Virus record (IMG/VR): IMGVR_UViG_3300036829_000217
Span: 1-22,947 of that record
Source: a virus
Length of the DNA: 22,947 nt
Direction: 5' to 3' (one strand)
Position numbers and translations under genes: made by a program. The stretch's first letter is position 1; every line of letters begins with the position of its first letter. The notes under the pieces are model-generated. The model had not been told where the DNA came from. It saw only the letters and a list, made by a program, of their open reading frames with translations, and did no database searches. Below, in pieces: positions 5,584 through 22,516 of the stretch.

Positions 5584-6011
5584 GATCCGTTCATTGCGCG
5601 CGGCACGACGCTGAGCTGCTTGCGAAGCTCCTCTTCGACGTCGATTTTCTCGGCTTCGGCCCGAGCCGCTTTGACCGCTTCTCGGGCCAGCTTGGGGAGC
5701 GCAACAGAGAGAGCTTCGAGCAACTGGGTATTCAGCTCATCGATGTCTGAACCGTCGAGCAGAGTTTCGATCTCTTCCTCGGCTAACTGCTGCTCCCAGG
5801 TCCCTGACCATACGGCTACGACGTGTGCCTCGTAATAGCGCGGTCCTGATGGAGTGATGAGCGACTGGACGAGCTCGATAACAGACGGGAATTTCGTTTC
5901 GATGCGGCGCATACCGCCAAAGCCGTAGTGCAGCTGCAGCCTGCGGCCGTTCGCGAGCGGGAGTTCCGTTCCGTTGCCATAGGCCAGCCGGTCGGCGTCA
6001 GTAATGGTCAT
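5514..6011 (-). CDS. Tail assembly chaperone, upstream frame (gpG-like)
   Basis: This 165-residue protein lies between the major tail protein and the tape measure gene, the canonical place of the G/GT chaperone pair. The start at 6011 has an AAGGA ribosome-binding site a few bases upstream. The body is mixed and acidic (YGFGGMRRIETKFPSVIELV, then EEEIETLLDGSDIDELN), with a charged helical region KAARAEAEKIDVEEELRK. The last part, about 20-25 residues rich in Thr and Ser (TTTTSQPSSLAEGTTSSGV), looks like the non-shifted tail left after the ribosome passes the frameshift site. The product binds the tape measure protein and recruits tube subunits; it is not part of the mature virion in known systems. 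Confidence 0.8.
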   Translation of the reverse strand: MTITDADRLAYGNGTELPLANGRRLQLHYGFGGMRRIETKFPSVIELVQSLITPSGPRYYEAHVVAVWSGTWEQQLAEEEIETLLDGSDIDELNTQLLEALSVALPKLAREAVKAARAEAEKIDVEEELRKQLSVVPRAMNGSPGETTTTSQPSSLAEGTTSSGV

Positions 6012-6079
6012 GTTGTCCTTCCGTGGATTCCCAGGGGTTTCCTGGTGTTCCTGATGTCCCTCTTGTGGAGGTCGGTACA

Positions 6080-9743: not shown

Positions 9744-11033
9744 ATGAACCAGGTTATATCGGCCTCGGCTAGGCACGTACGCCAAGAGCAACAGGCGACT
9801 CGCGCTCTGTCAATCGCAATGGTCGCCGTTGCCGCCTATCCGTCAACCATCTTCACCGGCCGATCTACTTGGTTACCGCCTCTTGGCATTGCAATCTTCC
9901 TGCTGGCTCATTGGCCTTCGGTGGGAGCTACTCGAACCGCTGCAAGCCGCGTAGTTTTCATGGGCTTTTTCTTTCTCATCGCTGCTACCGGCGTAAACAC
10001 AGGGGGCAACTTCGGAGGACAGTACCTTGCCAGCGCCGCTCTCGTTCTAACGGCCATCCCCGTGGCTTCGAAGGCGAATCCTCACCGCATTGCGCGTACC
10101 GTTGTCTTGCTGACGTTGGCCGAGATCGGTTTAGCGCTCGGTCAGTTCTTCTTGCATGTTGAGGTGCCCTGGCATCACCAAGAGCCGCAATGGATGGCCT
10201 ATCTGACGCGCAACGAGCTTCTCGGCGGCGGCAGACCACGCGTTGATGGCACCATGGGGCATCCTCTGCTGCTAGCACTTCTCGTCAACCTGTCGTTCGC
10301 TATCGTCGTTCGGGCGTCCTACGTCCGGCGACGGCGACTCGTGATCATGAGCATTCTGGTTGCCGGCATCCTGATCACCGGAAGTCGCAGCGCTGCGGCC
10401 ATTGCCCTATTGCTTGTTCTCTTCGGAACAGTGCGTCGATTCACCCTCGGGCGGTTGGCAGGGCGCGCCCTACTTGCTGTCGGACTGTTAGTCCTAGCCA
10501 TCAACGCCGGAGTGCTCCAGAGCGGTGTAGTCGACCGGTTCACGGCATCGGGTTCGCTCTCGCACCGGCAGGGAGCCTTCTCCTCGGTCCCGGTGCTCTT
10601 CCACGAACAGTCTTTGTCGTATCTGCTATTCGGTAATGGCTGGGCTGGACCACAAACACTGTTCGATCGAGGGCTTCTACAGACGGACTACTTCCGCGCC
10701 GTCGACAACCAATGGGTCGCCACCATCGTTTCATCCGGGCTTGTCGGTCTCGCTCTGATCTCGTTCGCCATGTATCGAGCGGTTCGTCACGCTGATACCG
10801 ATCAGCGCGTCCTGTGGCTTACGTTCCTAGTCGAGTGGTTTGTCTTCGACGCTCTTTGGTGGACGCCGGGGCTCCTGGCGTGTGGTGTGCTACTCGGGGT
10901 CCGAGCTAGTCGGCCTGAGGTTGCTGAGCATCCGCCTCAGCAAGTGCCTCAGCAAGTTCCCGCTTCGCCTGGATCACCAACAGCGCCTTCGCTTCGAAAT
11001 CGGCGTGCCCCGCCGGAAGCTGCACTGAGTTGA
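9744..11033 (+). CDS. O-antigen ligase/polymerase-like (Wzy/WaaL superfamily) membrane protein
   Basis: This is a 429-residue polytopic membrane protein with about ten hydrophobic segments between residues 20 and 388. Features of the O-antigen ligase/polymerase superfamily are visible in order: RPRVDGTMGHPLLLA (164-178), then ITGSRSAAAIALLL (211-224), SLSHRQGAF (271-279), LLFGNGW (294-300) and DNQWVATIVSSGLVGL (321-336). Such proteins join or polymerise lipid-linked glycans on the outer face of the membrane. In a phage this suggests lysogenic conversion of a surface glycan that blocks the receptor for other phages. A GGAGG site lies 6 bases before the ATG. The last 40 residues are Pro/Gln/Ala-rich and overlap the leftward 56-residue gene tail to tail, so the C-terminus may be an extension without fold. 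Confidence 0.78.
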   Translation: MNQVISASARHVRQEQQATRALSIAMVAVAAYPSTIFTGRSTWLPPLGIAIFLLAHWPSVGATRTAASRVVFMGFFFLIAATGVNTGGNFGGQYLASAALVLTAIPVASKANPHRIARTVVLLTLAEIGLALGQFFLHVEVPWHHQEPQWMAYLTRNELLGGGRPRVDGTMGHPLLLALLVNLSFAIVVRASYVRRRRLVIMSILVAGILITGSRSAAAIALLLVLFGTVRRFTLGRLAGRALLAVGLLVLAINAGVLQSGVVDRFTASGSLSHRQGAFSSVPVLFHEQSLSYLLFGNGWAGPQTLFDRGLLQTDYFRAVDNQWVATIVSSGLVGLALISFAMYRAVRHADTDQRVLWLTFLVEWFVFDALWWTPGLLACGVLLGVRASRPEVAEHPPQQVPQQVPASPGSPTAPSLRNRRAPPEAALS

Positions 11034-13614: not shown

Positions 13615-13977
13615 CTACGACCCCTTGATCTGACGCAGGATGTACGGCGTCACCTGGTGGCCCTCGTTCACGATGACCGTTGCCCGAACCGGCTCGGTCT
13701 CGGTGACCTCTCCCGTGTCGTAGTCCAGATACATCGTCTTAGGAGCGGGCTTGCCCAACTCCCAGCCATCGTCCTCGGCGCTGCCCACCGGTTGCTCGGT
13801 GACCTTTTTGAGCGTGCCAGCCTTCGGAGCTTCTGGTTCCTCCGTTGCCTTGGTCTCGGTTCCCTTTGCGGCTTCCTTGGCCTTGACCTCTGCCGCTGGA
13901 TCCTCGGGAAGAGCCTCAGGGTCCGTTGCCTCCGGATCGGTGTATTCCTCTGGCTTCACTTTGGCTGCCTTAGACAT
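13615..13977 (-). CDS. Acidic small protein after the major capsid gene
   Basis: The product has 120 residues, starting at the ATG at 13977 that overlaps the capsid stop (TGATG). A GTG three bases upstream is an equal candidate. The first 60 residues are Glu/Lys/Ala/Pro-rich and low in complexity (DPEATDPEALPEDPAAEVKA), probably disordered. The last 55 contain a more structured MYLDYDTGEVTETEPVRATV and then NEGHQVTPYILRQIKG. Its place suggests a head protein, perhaps decoration or head completion. The function is unknown. Confidence 0.72.
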   Translation of the reverse strand: MSKAAKVKPEEYTDPEATDPEALPEDPAAEVKAKEAAKGTETKATEEPEAPKAGTLKKVTEQPVGSAEDDGWELGKPAPKTMYLDYDTGEVTETEPVRATVIVNEGHQVTPYILRQIKGS

Positions 13978-15245
13978 CACTCAGCCCCCTGGAAAACGAT
14001 TTTGGTCCATGCCTTGGGCCTGTTGACTGCAAGACCGAGGCGGAGCTCTGCGAGCAAGGTCAGGATGTTCTGGCGGAACTTCGACGCGTCCGAGTCCGTC
14101 ACGTAGAGGGCCGCACGCTGACGGTCGTACAGAGTGGCTCCGAGCTTGGCGTCGCCTTCAAGGGCGGTGCCGGCGGCGACTGTGTTCGTGTCGACAACGT
14201 TCATGCCCCAAATGCGGGGAGTGAGGTTGTCCTGCACGTTCGGAGTAACTCGCCAGCGGCCGGTGTCGTCGGTCGACAGTTCGACAGTCTCCCAGTCGTC
14301 CGGGTTCAGGATGACGACGTTGGCGGCATATTCGTTGTGACGAACAAGGGTCTTGCCACGACGGAGCGAGATGATCTTTGCCTCGTCGTTGCCGACGCCC
14401 GTGTTGTACGAGTTGATGCCCGACGTGTTCAGGATGCCGACCATGGTGTTCGACGTACCGTCACCGTTGATGATCTGGTTGTCGACCCGGTAGGCCAGAC
14501 CGTAGAAGAGCCGGGTCTGCACAAGACCGCGGAGCTGGGTGTGGTCGTCGAGAGCCTGGCGGGCGATGTCAGTCCAGTGCGCGACCGTCTTGATCGTGTC
14601 GGTCACCAGTTCCCAGGTGTAGGTCGACTCGGGTTTGGTGCCGCCTTCGGCAGTCTCGGCCGCGGTTCCCTGCGGCGTTGAGCTGTTGTCACGGACGTAG
14701 CCGAACGCGTCGCTGGTGGACGGAACCTGCGTGAGCAAGTCGACCAGACCCAAAGGGCGGTCGGCCACCGCCTGGACGATGCCCGGCGTGCGAGGGATTG
14801 GGTCGAGGATGTTGCTGATGCCACCGACACCCGTGATGAGCGACCGGGTGTCCACGCCTTCAACGACCGTTCCGCCCTGCGAGCCTCCGCTCTGGGTGCG
14901 CCGGCCAACACGAGTGGACCGAAACTCCTCCAGGTCTCCCGACTCCATGAAGTAGTCGACAAGGCCCTTGGGGCCCACACGATTTTCAGCGTCCTGGCCG
15001 CCGCCTCGTTGATCACCTGCATCACCAGGGTTCGTGTCACCTGTCGGGGTGGGGCGGTCGAATCCAACGTCGCTAAGGCGAGAGCGGGCCTCATTGGCCT
15101 TAGCTACCTTGCCGTTGTACTCATCGATCTGGGAGCGAACTTCGTCTGCCTCAGCCACCAGGGCGTCGGCATCGTCGTCGGGGCCGAGATTGTCGATGCG
15201 CTCGAGGATGGCGATACGACGGGCTTCAAGTTCTTTGGGGTCCAT
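13977..15245 (-). CDS. Major capsid protein, HK97 fold
   Basis: This 422-residue protein has the HK97 pattern. An N-terminal charged coiled coil (about 1-58) serves as the delta scaffolding domain, followed by a Gly/Asp/Pro-rich linker (60-95). The capsid core then contains GLVDLLTQVPSTSDAFGYVR, the E-loop-like ESTYTWELVTDTIKTVAHWT, the spine helix region and an A-domain with VVILNPDDWETVELSTDDTG. The C-terminus LAELRLGLAVNRPKAWTKIV is typical. The prohead protease encoded two genes upstream should remove the delta domain, probably near residues 110-130. A 178-base gap with a promoter-like sequence precedes it, which suits its high demand. Confidence 0.95.
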   Translation of the reverse strand: MDPKELEARRIAILERIDNLGPDDDADALVAEADEVRSQIDEYNGKVAKANEARSRLSDVGFDRPTPTGDTNPGDAGDQRGGGQDAENRVGPKGLVDYFMESGDLEEFRSTRVGRRTQSGGSQGGTVVEGVDTRSLITGVGGISNILDPIPRTPGIVQAVADRPLGLVDLLTQVPSTSDAFGYVRDNSSTPQGTAAETAEGGTKPESTYTWELVTDTIKTVAHWTDIARQALDDHTQLRGLVQTRLFYGLAYRVDNQIINGDGTSNTMVGILNTSGINSYNTGVGNDEAKIISLRRGKTLVRHNEYAANVVILNPDDWETVELSTDDTGRWRVTPNVQDNLTPRIWGMNVVDTNTVAAGTALEGDAKLGATLYDRQRAALYVTDSDASKFRQNILTLLAELRLGLAVNRPKAWTKIVFQGAE

Positions 15246-15423: not shown

Positions 15424-16080
15424 CTACCGCACCGCCACGGTCACATCGCCCTGCGCCTGCAACAGCAGATCGAGGTCGTGCCAGCTCATTAGGAATTTTC
15501 CACCCAGAGCCCAATCCGGGCCCCAGCTGTTATAGAACCAGACCGTTTTCATATCGACGTCCAGACCGAACGCCTCGATCTCGTGCCCGCCACGGACTTG
15601 CGAGTGCGACGTCACATGCACTTGACCGGTTCGATCCGGTTTGTCGAATGTGTCTAGCCAGTCGATACCAATGATCACTGGCGTGAGCACCAAAGCTTCA
15701 AGCGCGTGCTGTAGGCCGAAGGCATGGTGGTACGCCGAGATGTACCCGGCTGCCTTGGCTGCCTTGGCCACGGCAAGGCCTGACGATCCTGTGTCGTCCG
15801 GGGGATACGCCCCGGGAATGCCGTCCAGTCGCGTTGCAGCGGAGTACAGCTGGATAGCCGTCTTCTCATCAAAGTTCCACGATGGCTGACGCAGGGGATC
15901 AGTCATCAGTGCGCCGGCCATCGCATTACCCGTGCAATCGCCGAGGTCTTTCTGGTCCCACACTGGCGCGTGACGAACGTGCTTCACCGTTTTGAGGGCG
16001 GGCGCGCGAGCAGCTCTGTACAGCTTGCTGAGGGGATCGTGTTCGACATGGCGACCGAGGCGGAGAACCCGTTCGGTCAT
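15424..16080 (-). CDS. Papain-like (C1 family) cysteine protease
   Basis: This 218-residue protein has the complete papain catalytic set: Gln43 (VWDQKDLGDC), Cys49 (GDCTGNAMAGAL), His166 (VRGGHEIEAFGLD) and Asn184 (FYNSWGPDW), in the family's order and with its NSWG motif. There is no signal peptide and no long propeptide, unlike secreted papains, so it should act in the cell or in the particle. It overlaps the prohead protease stop in an ATGA and precedes the capsid gene. It may process a virion protein, or be packaged and act on the host at infection; neither is shown. Related stand-alone C1-like proteins occur in actinobacteria and their phages. Confidence 0.85.
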   Translation of the reverse strand: MTERVLRLGRHVEHDPLSKLYRAARAPALKTVKHVRHAPVWDQKDLGDCTGNAMAGALMTDPLRQPSWNFDEKTAIQLYSAATRLDGIPGAYPPDDTGSSGLAVAKAAKAAGYISAYHHAFGLQHALEALVLTPVIIGIDWLDTFDKPDRTGQVHVTSHSQVRGGHEIEAFGLDVDMKTVWFYNSWGPDWALGGKFLMSWHDLDLLLQAQGDVTVAVR

Positions 16081-17459
16081 GCGACCTTCACGGAGGCGAG
16101 ACGAAGGGCTGCGGCCTTGCGCTTCAACTCTTGCGCTGAGCGTTCGCCGCCTTCCGGAGGTGGATCCTCCGTACCGAGATGCTCGGGCTTGGTGTCAGCA
16201 ACAGCTTCCTGGCCCTTTCGGGTCTCGCGTGGAGTGTCGGTCGACCGGTCCCCGAGGCCTTCGTCGTCGGTGTCCGCTGGTGTGACCACGAGTTCGAGCT
16301 CGACCTGCGTTGCACTGCCGAGAGTGACGTCCTCACCATCACCGCTGACGACATATGGGAACGAGTAGGTGACGCCGTCATAGTCGTCGTCGACGTAGAT
16401 GGTCGCCACAACGTGATCGGCGAAGGTAGCGACGACGGATACATAGATCCGCTCGGCGTCAGGAAGTTGGTCTTCTGCCCACTCGTCGATAGCCTCTCGC
16501 AGTTCGTCGATGAGCGCTTCATACGACCCTTCGACCGGGTCGATGCTCCGGCGTTCAACTTTGCGCTTGCTCTGGCTTCTGTTCATGATGCCTTCCGCTG
16601 CTCGATTCGACTTATCACCAGGCCAGTGATTTAGCACGTCGTGGTACCACTTCGCCGCCGTAGCCTTGGCTTTCTCCGGCTCTTTGATGTATTTGAGCAA
16701 GTGGTGATACAGAGCGGTCCACGGCTTCGGTTTGCTGAGCCACTTGGCGAGACCCTCACCATGGGTCCAGTAATCGTGTAGCCGATCTGCGTTCGAACCA
16801 GGTACTGCGCGCTTCTCTTGGCCACTACTTGCAGGGATGGGCTCATCAGTGAGGTCGTCGTCAGTCAGCTGGACCGCGTATGCCTCTTCCGGCGATGGGA
16901 CACCGACCTCCTGGTGCGCCAGGTCTGGAGACTTCGCCGGTGTCTTGGTGCCATCTGCCCGCTTCATAAATTCAGCGGCTTTCCGGACTGCGGCGAGCTC
17001 TGCTCCCGGCTGAGAAGCCATGCCGAGCGTGATCTGACTGACCTCCACGAGTTCTGCCTCAGTGATGAGGCTCGAGTCGTTCTTGTCGACGGCACGGCGG
17101 ATGAACCCAACCGACAGCTCCGGCGCTGACCCTGATGCTGCCCGCTTGCGAGCCCGCTGGCCCTCGGGGGTGTCGTCATACGTGCCCTCGATCCACAGGC
17201 CCTTCTCGTCCTCTCGCCAGGTGAAGACCCCGACCGGTTCATCGACGTCGTGCATCCAGAGGTACGCGCGCGTGGTGGGGCCGCCGCCGGCCTCCCACGC
17301 CCCGGGGTTAAAGCGAGTGTTGAAAGAGTCGGTAACGAGGTGCAGATTGGCGTAACCGCTGAAAGTGCCGGGGCCTTCGCCATCGAGACGAGTTTCCAGC
17401 TGGCCAAGAGCGACGCGTCGATATTCAACCTGACCGAGCAATCCTTCAGTAATTGTCAT
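16077..17459 (-). CDS. Prohead (capsid maturation) protease with long C-terminal extension
   Basis: The ATG at 17459 is chosen because GGAGG lies 8 bases upstream; this gives 460 residues. The first 160 are an HK97-type S78 protease: NTRFNPGAW, His70 in YLWMHDVDEPVG, Ser116 in SAPELSVGFI, then AELVEVSQITLGMASQPGAE. It cuts the capsid delta domain and itself during maturation. Beyond this, residues about 223-286 contain RLHDYWTHGEGLAKWLSKP and KWYHDVLNHWPGDKSNR, a module I recognise from actinophage maturation proteases. The following 170 residues are acidic, with a probable coiled coil (ALIDELREAIDEWAEDQL) and a disordered Glu/Pro-rich end, possibly a fused scaffold. It overlaps the cysteine protease gene by four bases. 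Confidence 0.9.
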   Translation of the reverse strand: MTITEGLLGQVEYRRVALGQLETRLDGEGPGTFSGYANLHLVTDSFNTRFNPGAWEAGGGPTTRAYLWMHDVDEPVGVFTWREDEKGLWIEGTYDDTPEGQRARKRAASGSAPELSVGFIRRAVDKNDSSLITEAELVEVSQITLGMASQPGAELAAVRKAAEFMKRADGTKTPAKSPDLAHQEVGVPSPEEAYAVQLTDDDLTDEPIPASSGQEKRAVPGSNADRLHDYWTHGEGLAKWLSKPKPWTALYHHLLKYIKEPEKAKATAAKWYHDVLNHWPGDKSNRAAEGIMNRSQSKRKVERRSIDPVEGSYEALIDELREAIDEWAEDQLPDAERIYVSVVATFADHVVATIYVDDDYDGVTYSFPYVVSGDGEDVTLGSATQVELELVVTPADTDDEGLGDRSTDTPRETRKGQEAVADTKPEHLGTEDPPPEGGERSAQELKRKAAALRLASVKVA

Positions 17460-17557
17460 CGAACGCCCCTCCATGGCCTACTTCTATTCATAGCCTTACA
17501 GGTATACGCCCAGTGTGTGCGGTGCTTCCCAGGGCCAAAGCAAACAACGCATCATTG

Positions 17558-18701: not shown

Positions 18702-19241
18702 TCAAGCTTCAAGCTTCTCCACGACGAACGGCGCCCTGACGCCCTTGTTGATGTGCTCAGAGGCAGCGAGCGCCTGGCGGATACGCTCCTCCGGCTTATG
18801 ACTCGTGAGGACATGCAGAGCGCCCTTGGCTACTTCATCACCGCAGCCAATGGCGTCATATCCGTCTGCTGACTCTCCAACTTGGTAGTCCGAGTCGATG
18901 CGAAAAAGTCGGCCCCGGTACCCGACCAAGAACAGGCCACCGCTCTCGACAGAGTCGTGGACCTTCATCAAGCCGTTATCTCGGAAACACTGACGAACGG
19001 CGTCAACGAAGTCACAGACCATGTACTCCTCGACGCTCTGACTTCCGCGCTGTTCAGACACTATGAGCTTGTGGCGAAGAAGCTGACCCTGGCGAACTGA
19101 TCCAGAGTTGCCGAAAATGAAGTCACTGTCGCTCCACACCTTTGCCTCGACATAGGTCATCTGTGTGTAGTGCGTGGAAGCGCACGAATCTGCGCCGATC
19201 CACACAACTCCGTCCTCGGTAAGGCCCGCAACGCAAGTCAC
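18702..19241 (-). CDS. Proteasome beta/HslV-like Ntn hydrolase
   Basis: The GTG at 19241 overlaps the portal stop in a GTGA and encodes MTCVAGLTEDGVVWIGADS. Removal of Met leaves Thr1; Asp17 (GADS) and Lys33 (VEAKVW) then fall at exactly the catalytic positions of proteasome beta and HslV subunits. FIFGNSGSVRQGQLLRH matches the substrate-loop region after Lys33, and YDAIGCGDEVAKGAL matches the HslV IGSGG region. The product is 179 residues, close to HslV length. An upstream in-frame start (19280) would bury the Thr. No ATPase partner is encoded nearby. Placed between portal and capsid protease genes, it may process head proteins, or act as a host-directed peptidase; both are inference. Confidence 0.85.
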   Translation of the reverse strand: MTCVAGLTEDGVVWIGADSCASTHYTQMTYVEAKVWSDSDFIFGNSGSVRQGQLLRHKLIVSEQRGSQSVEEYMVCDFVDAVRQCFRDNGLMKVHDSVESGGLFLVGYRGRLFRIDSDYQVGESADGYDAIGCGDEVAKGALHVLTSHKPEERIRQALAASEHINKGVRAPFVVEKLEA

Positions 19242-21454
19242 GCTGGATCCTCCGAGTGGTAGAGCAGGACGCACCTGCACCCTATGGTTTCTTCGGGTAA
19301 TCCTGCCGGATCACCGGGAAATAGCAGACCATTCGCGAACCGGTCTCGCATCGGCACGGAGACTCCACGGAGTTTCTCGTGAGTAGGGCGAACGCGGTCA
19401 TCTTTCGCCGGAAGCCAGGACTTTGACTTCACAAAGTTCGACTCGCTGGCAGTCAGGAACGATGCGGAGTTATGACCGCTGACCACCTCAGTACGTGCCA
19501 CAAGCTCGGCTCGCCAGGTCTCGAGGTCGGTGAAGCGCTCCTTGAGTCTCTCGGCGAGTTGAGCCGTCCCCTCGCCCTCTTCCACGCCTTCCTTCAGCAC
19601 TTCCTCAGAAATGGCGTCATAAGTGGTCTGAGTGATCTGGCCAGCGAGCACATCAAGACGGTTCTGCATCTCCGTTGTGACGCGCTGAAGGAAGGAGTCG
19701 GTCAGCTCCACGCCCATCGCATCGGCCGTCGAAGATGCCGCTGAGGTCCAGAGGTCATCGAAGCGGCCGATCAACGTCTTCACGGTCTCTTTGACCCAGA
19801 AGACGACGTTGAACAGCGCCGTGGGGTCGAGCTTTGCTCGGTGCTCCGGGGAACCCTGGGCCTTCCGTTGAGCCTTCTCTAGGTTCCGCAACGTCATGGT
19901 GCGCTGCTTGCCGGCCAACTCCACGATGCCCCGAGCGAGCAACTTCTCGTGTCGGTCGTAGGCCCGCTGGACAGCTGCGGGATCGATGGTGATGTTCGGT
20001 GCCGGCTTGTCCGAAGTGAGGACATTCGCTAGCTCGTTAGCAACGTCGGATACCGTGATCGTCTTGGCGGGCAGTTCGAAGATGCCCCGCTGTGCATTGG
20101 TTGGCAGTGGTGCAGGGGCATTGGGATCTGCCGGTGGCGCCGCCACGGACACCTGCGGTGGCGCGTACTGCACTTTCACCCACTCCCGGTACTGACTCAG
20201 CGTCATGTTGTCGCGCTCGTCGCCGAACACCTCAAGATTCACCTTGGCGCGCGCTTCAGCCATCGTGGTGATGTCGGCTTCGTGGGCCTTAATCGTCCGA
20301 TCGTGGAGGCCGTCGATGTTCTCTTGAAGCGCCTGGACCGTGCGCACGTCGAACACTGCACTTAGGGCTACGTCGGGGAACACCTGCCGGTCGATCTCGG
20401 CCTCGACGAGCTCCTTCTTGCCGATCAACAGCCCTGACCACAAGCGGCTCCACGCGGCGTCCTGGTTGTTGAACGTCGACTGGCCGAAGATCAGGTCGAT
20501 CGGAACGCCGAGGGCCAACGCGATGTCCTGGCCGTTGACGCGGTGCGACTCCAGGTAGGACATTTCGGCAGGCGTCAGGCCGATACGGTCGAAGCCTGGT
20601 TTGTCGTCGTCACCGTAAGTGAAAAGAATGCGACCGGCGTTGCGAGCGCCACCGTTCTCGGCTTCCGTCTTGGCCTTGATCTTCTCTGCTTCTTCACGAC
20701 TGCGCTTGCCGAGGCGCATGACGCCGCTGGGACGGGCACCGTTGTCCAACTCACCGAGCTGCCACTCGCGGGCCTTGCGATCCAGCCCGGCCGCCATGCG
20801 AGCAGCTGCACCCGGCGGCATCGGTGCCCACGGCAGCTCGAAGTGCGGATAGCGCACCCACAGCACCTCGCTGGGCAGCAGGTCGACCTCGCCCCATCGG
20901 GTATACGCCCTGTAGCCCAGCAGCCGAGGAGCGATCTTCTCCCGGCTGGTCAACGGCCGCGGGTTGCCATCCTGGTCTAGTGCCCTGTTGGCGAAGACGG
21001 GAACGACCCGGTCCATGATGACGACGAAATCCCCAGGATCACCTTCGCCCGTCGGACCGCGGTCCATATAGACGAACCCTTCGCCCTTCATCTCAAGGCG
21101 GGCCCACATAATCCGCTTCATGGCCACGGCGTTGTCCGTGTCGGAGGAAGCCTTGTTGAACAGGTTGGCTACGGGGTCATCCTCGACGTACTCCTCGCCG
21201 CCGTCGGTTGTCTTCTTGAGCACGAGGTCACGGCCGGCCAGTTCCGTGGCGATTAGGTCGACGCAGCGGTAGATGACCTCACTGGCCTCGAACGCGTTGA
21301 GTTCGGCTGCGGGGTCGAACCCGAGGCGTGCATCACCGGCAAGGTTGATGTGATCAAGACCGATCGACCCCACGCTCTCAGTGAAGAACGTCGAGCGAGT
21401 TTCTGTCTTTGGGCTACGCCGGGACAGGCCCGGAAGCGTGAGGCGTACCGCCAT
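19238..21454 (-). CDS. Portal protein fused to MuF-like minor head protein
   Basis: The product has 738 residues, far longer than a usual portal (about 400-500). Residues about 30-430 are an HK97-type portal: VIYRCVDLIATELAGRDLVL, then EGFVYMDRG, VLWVRYPHFELPWAPMPPG, RVNGQDIALALGVPIDLIFG and NNQDAAWSRLW. A Pro/Ala linker follows (about 431-455), then a helical part. The C-terminus (about 640-735) is MuF-like: RTEVVSGHNSAS, KDDRVRPTHEKLRGVSVPMR and IGCRCVLLYH. The portal forms the DNA gate of the head; MuF proteins are minor head parts ejected or bound at the portal. The fusion is a known variant. A short coupled ORF may precede it (TGATG). Confidence 0.94.
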   Translation of the reverse strand: MAVRLTLPGLSRRSPKTETRSTFFTESVGSIGLDHINLAGDARLGFDPAAELNAFEASEVIYRCVDLIATELAGRDLVLKKTTDGGEEYVEDDPVANLFNKASSDTDNAVAMKRIMWARLEMKGEGFVYMDRGPTGEGDPGDFVVIMDRVVPVFANRALDQDGNPRPLTSREKIAPRLLGYRAYTRWGEVDLLPSEVLWVRYPHFELPWAPMPPGAAARMAAGLDRKAREWQLGELDNGARPSGVMRLGKRSREEAEKIKAKTEAENGGARNAGRILFTYGDDDKPGFDRIGLTPAEMSYLESHRVNGQDIALALGVPIDLIFGQSTFNNQDAAWSRLWSGLLIGKKELVEAEIDRQVFPDVALSAVFDVRTVQALQENIDGLHDRTIKAHEADITTMAEARAKVNLEVFGDERDNMTLSQYREWVKVQYAPPQVSVAAPPADPNAPAPLPTNAQRGIFELPAKTITVSDVANELANVLTSDKPAPNITIDPAAVQRAYDRHEKLLARGIVELAGKQRTMTLRNLEKAQRKAQGSPEHRAKLDPTALFNVVFWVKETVKTLIGRFDDLWTSAASSTADAMGVELTDSFLQRVTTEMQNRLDVLAGQITQTTYDAISEEVLKEGVEEGEGTAQLAERLKERFTDLETWRAELVARTEVVSGHNSASFLTASESNFVKSKSWLPAKDDRVRPTHEKLRGVSVPMRDRFANGLLFPGDPAGLPEETIGCRCVLLYHSEDPA

Positions 21455-21679: not shown

Positions 21680-22516
21680 ATGAGTCGTGATGGCGTTCTC
21701 GACGCGGCCTTGCGATATGCCGCACACGGTTGGCCTGTGATTCTACTTGGCTCCAGGTCAAAGATGCCTCGGCTCCCGAAGAGCAAGGGTGGAAACGGAC
21801 TCTACGATGCAACGACCGATGACGGCCAGATCCAGGCGTGGCTCCAGAAGCATCCCAACGCGAACATTGGCCTGCGTAGCGGAGTGGCTTTCGACGTGGT
21901 CGACCTTGATGGCCTGCGAGCAACTGAGGCGCTTGAGACTGCGCGGCAAGGTCGGGACAAGCTGCGGGGACCCATGGTCCAGACCCCTCATGGTTGGCAC
22001 GTGCTGGTTCAACCCACCGGAGTCGGCAACCGTGTCGGCGTTCTTCCCGGCGTCGACTTCCGCGGGGCGAACGGCTACGTCGTCGCTCCACCCAGCATCG
22101 TCGACGCACCGGACGTGCCTTTCGACCGCCGACAGTACAAGTGGTTCAACCCCACCGATGCCATTGTCCCGGCGCCGTCCTGGCTCCTTGATCTGCTCCA
22201 ACGCACACGAGAGCTACCAGTAAGGGCCGCTTACTTACCAGTAGGTCCCAGGACCACGGCCTATGGACGTGCAGCTCTACGCCGGGAGATCGAGTCGCTG
22301 TCCCGTGCGCGACTCGGCACCCGAAACGACCACCTCAACCGCAGTGCATTTGCCTTGGGTCAGCTCGTCGGCTCCGGCGTGCTGGAGGAGGAGCAGATCG
22401 TCACCGCCCTGACGGAGACGGGACTTGCGCTGGGGCTAGAGGAGCGGGAATGCGAGCGCACGATCGCAAGCGGCTTGAATGCTGGGATGGAAGCCCCTCG
22501 ATCGTTGACGCTCTAG
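21680..22516 (+). CDS. Primase-polymerase (prim-pol, AEP-type) protein
   Basis: This 278-residue protein begins LDAALRYAAHGWPVILLGSR, the hallmark N-terminus of bifunctional DNA primase/polymerase domains of phages and plasmids. The metal-binding acids are in FDVVDLDG (Asp72, Asp75, Asp77) and the catalytic His in TPHGWHVLV (His104 or His107). GANGYVVAPPSIVD (about 135-148) is also typical. The last 70 residues (LGTRNDHLNRSAFALGQLVG, then ECERTIASGLNAGM) form a primase C-terminal (PriCT-like) helical domain. No helicase domain is fused, so a separate helicase is needed, perhaps beyond the right edge. It is transcribed away from the late operon, probably early. Confidence 0.88.
   Translation: MSRDGVLDAALRYAAHGWPVILLGSRSKMPRLPKSKGGNGLYDATTDDGQIQAWLQKHPNANIGLRSGVAFDVVDLDGLRATEALETARQGRDKLRGPMVQTPHGWHVLVQPTGVGNRVGVLPGVDFRGANGYVVAPPSIVDAPDVPFDRRQYKWFNPTDAIVPAPSWLLDLLQRTRELPVRAAYLPVGPRTTAYGRAALRREIESLSRARLGTRNDHLNRSAFALGQLVGSGVLEEEQIVTALTETGLALGLEERECERTIASGLNAGMEAPRSLTL

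Follow-up and report, generated by a model that had tools for sequence, protein, structure and literature searches.

Fuchs, Alva and Lupas have described 22 proteasome homologues in their 2021 survey, of which AAH and PPH occur in phages (PMC8665760). According to the same survey, the phage proteasome homologue (PPH) is about 140 aa long and misses helix H2, BPH is a cellular protein with a long acidic pore loop, the new homologues have no co-occurring AAA+ partner, and no Actinobacteria-specific phage was found with AAH (PMC8665760). AAH proteins are present in many Actinobacteria and phages, and their function is still to be assigned. HslV proper, for its part, needs HslU. In this work, we have analysed a gene of this kind in a virus record of 22,947 bases, which is probably a fragment and is called the window below. 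Since the carrier is apparently an actinobacterial phage, the window copy extends the AAH family to a type of phage that the 2021 survey did not have.

The features of the locus are collected in Table 1. Positions 18702-19241, read on the reverse strand, give VTCVAGLTEDGVVWIGADSCASTHYTQMTYVEAKVW... with a single terminal stop. The peptidase gene is real, and the coordinates first assigned to it are correct, the strand being minus. Its product of 179 aa has the N-terminus V/M-T-C-V-A-G. The start GTG at 19241-19239 shares bases with the portal stop TGA at 19240-19238, giving GTGA. With an alternative in-frame GTG at 19280, the protein would gain 13 residues and its Thr would be buried, and this longer reading frame was rejected, as the relatives give no support to it. 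Relatives with a complete N-terminus all have a reading frame able to begin with M/V/L-T and share no conserved extension, and in L006, L022 and L035 a stop codon lies immediately 5' of the M/V/L-T start codon. The shorter start is therefore preferred. The Shine-Dalgarno-like site, the GTGA overlap and the N-termini of the relatives all agree with the original prediction that the GTG overlapping the portal stop places Thr next to Met, and these N-termini speak against a start further upstream with Thr in an internal position. Thr would thus directly follow the predicted initiator, with no propeptide, as is the case in AAH.

Table 1 Features of the head operon in the window that bear on the peptidase gene
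Feature	Position	Strand	Remarks
Major capsid protein, HK97 type	13977..15245	-	Closest to Streptomyces phages
Papain-like cysteine peptidase	15424..16080	-	Nearly all relatives in actinophages
S78 prohead protease (residues 28-159) with C-terminal extension	16077..17474	-	Dedicated capsid maturation protease
HNH endonuclease with C-terminal helix-turn-helix	18025..18705	-	Directly downstream of the peptidase; unmatched in sibling modules
AAH-like proteasome-homologue peptidase, 179 aa	18702..19241	-	GTG start; Thr1, Asp17, Lys33; from sequence, profiles and fold model
GTGA overlap of peptidase start and portal stop	19238..19241	-	From sequence; translational coupling
Portal-MuF fusion, 738 aa	19238..21454	-	Nearest relatives in Streptomyces phages mu1/6 and OnionKnight
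GGAGG Shine-Dalgarno-like site	19249..19253	-	From sequence; 7 nt upstream of the peptidase GTG

Pfam and NCBIfam give no match for the peptidase. PHROGs assigns it to phrog_1040, 'peptidase HslV family', with an E value of 3.6e-15, where the match covers only a part of the profile (positions 15-138 of 277). This family is the source of the annotation on many phage copies, and its name says nothing certain on function. A tblastn search matched 182 phage records, the best being Moorella phage MTATph1 with 42% identity, and the identity to any relative found is at most 46%. With the single sequence, a PDB search returned chance matches only and a profile was needed. The profile built from the window protein and 27 relatives in viral contigs and bacterial genomes (28 in total) matched T. 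maritima HslV (3.9e-7), BPH (6.7e-7) and also proteasome beta chains, and hhalign against E. coli HslV gave 94.5%.

The AlphaFold2 model of the peptidase has a pLDDT of 95.1 and a pTM of 0.90. It matches BPH, HslV and proteasome beta subunits with Z values of 19-21, for instance 21.3 for BPH (2.2 A over 168 residues) and 19.7 for E. coli HslV, and it also matches other phage proteins in BFVD. Helices are predicted at residues 49-58, 70-88, 135-144 and 150-164, followed by a final strand at 172-178. All four flanking helices H1-H4 are thus modelled, while the S12/H5 tail helix and insertions are absent, which corresponds to the compact core of AAH. Overall, structure prediction and superposition on HslV support the proteasome/HslV-type Ntn-hydrolase fold that had been proposed.

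When the residue after the initiator is counted as 1, the peptidase has Thr1, Asp17 and Lys33 in the exact numbering of proteasome beta subunits, as claimed at the outset. Of 70 non-identical sequences, 69 have Thr at position 1 and the remaining one has Ser, and Asp17, Lys33, Gly43 and Gly131 are each found in 70/70. Since the pattern is near-invariant in these sequences, it is not due to chance. The catalytic set is intact, the protein looks intact judging from its residues, and this conservation suggests that it is active as a peptidase. In addition, the window protein departs from the majority of its relatives at some secondary or support positions, having Gln50 where 60/70 relatives have Met and Asn164 where 50/70 have Ser, and these substitutions would count against the reading as an active peptidase that we prefer below. 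They are in line with another reading, namely a proteasome fold without general protease function, such as a specific transferase, ligase or amidase or an inactive binding protein, for which connectase, a proteasome-fold ligase, is a precedent (PMC8665760). However, Thr1, Asp17 and Lys33 are kept across very divergent relatives, which argues against a loss of catalysis, and the two-helix insertion that connectase has between strands 3 and 4 is missing from the model, so that we give this reading a low probability.

We then compared the peptidase with the described homologues. BPH (structures 5ovs, 5ovt and 5ovu) is the best fold match with a Z of 21 and apparently works without an unfoldase, but its identity to the window peptidase is 18-20%. 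HslV (1e94 and 1m4y) shares the fold, Thr1/Asp17/Lys33 and the GxG motif, but the identity is about 20% and the likely hosts have no HslU above the cut-off. HslV proper was rejected on this last point and on the lack of an NCBIfam or Pfam match. PPH is likewise phage-borne and proteasome-like, and was rejected as the window protein has 179 aa with both H1 (49-58) and H2 (70-88) modelled. The published features of AAH, a group I proteasome homologue, fit: four helices in a compact core, absence of the tail helix and of a propeptide, and T1/D17/K33. Because most of its close bacterial relatives come from alpha-proteobacteria and Actinobacteria, the groups after which AAH is named, and because PPH lacks H2, we file the peptidase as AAH-like. 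The difference from the AAH proteins of the survey is that the window peptidase apparently belongs to an actinobacterial phage and lies inside a head operon.

The bacterial relatives include those of the alpha-proteobacteria Nitratireductor, Rhizobiaceae and Azospirillum, and AAH-like copies are present in 36/395 Actinobacteria genomes. In the tree, the window protein falls into a broad clade that also holds copies from alpha-proteobacteria and Actinobacteria, without a supported sister, and it may thus derive from a cellular copy or from that of another phage. Two members from actinophages are more distant: the DSL-LC01 protein, which starts with MTT, lies outside it in the tree, and the Pumpernickel protein was found only when the related protein of ct2KA10 was used as the query.

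The host is probably an actinobacterium, because the portal and major capsid proteins are closest to those of Streptomyces phages and the papain-like gene matches actinophages (50 of its 52 matched phage records). With the portal as the query, no relatives were detected among viral sequences, and the 161-aa reading frame downstream is not detectably gp34 of mu1/6. As HslV proper works with HslU, the HslV-like fold would be consistent with a peptidase that replaces the usual proteolytic core of a host unfoldase (HslU, ClpX/ClpC or Mpa/ARC). However, HslU exceeds the family cut-off in 0/395 Actinobacteria genomes, against 5/14 control genomes. Weaker HslU matches occur in all those genomes, as would be expected from ClpX-like proteins. 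No AAA+ gene is present among the window proteins scanned, in a partial record of 22.9 kb, and an ATPase may lie elsewhere in the genome beyond this fragment. Together with the survey result that no AAA+ partner co-occurs with these homologues (PMC8665760), these results make an unfoldase partner improbable, and they agree with the original prediction, which had seen no ATPase partner for the peptidase.

We consider it likely that the peptidase is a phage-borne accessory threonine peptidase, independent of HslU and belonging to a known uncharacterised family. Judging from the GTGA coupling to the portal gene, it is probably made together with the head proteins. The host methionine aminopeptidase would remove Met and expose the Thr1 nucleophile without propeptide cleavage, the subunits would probably assemble into a ring as in BPH or HslV, and Thr1, Lys33 and Asp17 could then cut peptides or unfolded proteins with no need of HslU. 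Late in infection, the targets would more likely be proteins of the host or excess proteins of the phage than the capsid.

The same coupling to the portal-MuF gene would also fit the proposed capsid- or scaffold-processing enzyme, which would act beside S78 and cut a head protein, e.g., the MuF portion of the portal fusion, as the head assembles. Against this, the operon already has its own S78 protease, and the head module can be compared with four siblings, i.e., those of Streptomyces phages mu1/6 and OnionKnight and of two actinobacterial prophages, which have portal-MuF, S78 and MCP in the same order as the window. The peptidase, HNH and papain-like genes have no match in the four sibling head modules. 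A profile that scores the window protein at 1.7e-73 found nothing in the four sibling regions, and an earlier profile had no match anywhere in the complete records of mu1/6 and OnionKnight. Since the four siblings keep portal-MuF, S78 and MCP without the peptidase, they build this kind of head in its absence, and an accessory enzyme is therefore more likely than a capsid maker. The peptidase and the HNH endonuclease would then form an accessory insertion in a head operon that functions without the peptidase in the siblings. As the gene is present in the head module of the window and missing from that of its siblings, the comparison offers a clean test of its benefit to the phage.

The positions of other family members bear on the same question. 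In ct2KA10 (L009), an unannotated record assessed by ORF calls and PHROGs, the copy lies directly after the portal, and in L030, L031, L019, L022 and L039 it is near the terminase or portal. A further member of the family is in phiTY18 (L105), also an unannotated record. Viral contigs of medium size frequently have the gene close to TerL or the portal. For 12 contigs, a small and chosen set, the distance to the portal is shorter than random, with a modest effect (combined Fisher p about 0.02; 0.019 linear and 0.012 circular). This nearness favours head processing and could mean a late or head role. On the other hand, the slots vary among contigs (before TerL, between TerL and portal, after the portal, or between MCP and portal), and the actinobacterial cellular copies examined, L112-L119, lie in chromosomal regions without obvious phage genes, as judged from the ORF sequences only. 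These cellular copies mostly start with VTCIVG.

We have further read the annotated neighbourhoods in 12 isolated phages, i.e., Moorella MTATph1, Geobacillus E3, Psychrobacter D'Alembert, DSL-LC01, Ochrobactrum OC, Tunturi_5, henriette, pT24, 4L372D, S132, 166E36-1 and Pumpernickel. The neighbours are genes of nucleotide metabolism, DNA enzymes, other enzymes or uncharacterised genes, and no head gene occurs in the stretches read, the one exception being DSL-LC01, with a terminase at a distance of about 5.5 kb. Virion proteomics of relatives was not found in the literature. Overall, we regard capsid or scaffold processing as unlikely, contrary to what had been proposed, and we read the placement near TerL and the portal as that of late-operon cargo. 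There is also only a slim chance that the protein forms a self-assembling proteasome-like chamber which is made with the portal and either processes the phage head or becomes packaged with it. If this were true, some tailed phages would have a second, threonine-type head protease, and such a role would explain why the gene recurs close to terminase and portal.

Several observations concern single copies of the family. In Aeromonas phage 4L372D (L109:2501-3954), two adjoining genes are annotated as HslV-family peptidases, possibly encoding paired subunits. In Moorella phage MTATph1 (L005:6001-6558), the annotated start at 6043 is 14 codons inside the family start and would drop the catalytic Thr, and an in-frame TTG at 6001 gives Met-Thr. 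The copy on pSym of Cupriavidus necator (L044:8001-8594) has no recognisable N-terminus or Thr1, is the sole exception to the Met-Thr start, and looks degenerate.

Other genes of the window are also worth recording. The papain-like cysteine peptidase between S78 and MCP has apparently intact Cys, His and NSWG motifs, and threonine-, serine- and cysteine-type peptidases are all encoded in one operon within about 4 kb. On the opposite strand and amid the structural genes, positions 9744-11033 (+) encode an O-antigen ligase-like membrane protein (Wzy_C, below the cut-off), which is possibly a lysogeny or surface-modifying gene. A Prim-Pol domain protein (bifunctional primase/polymerase N-terminal) is encoded at 21680-22516 (+) and points away from the head operon.
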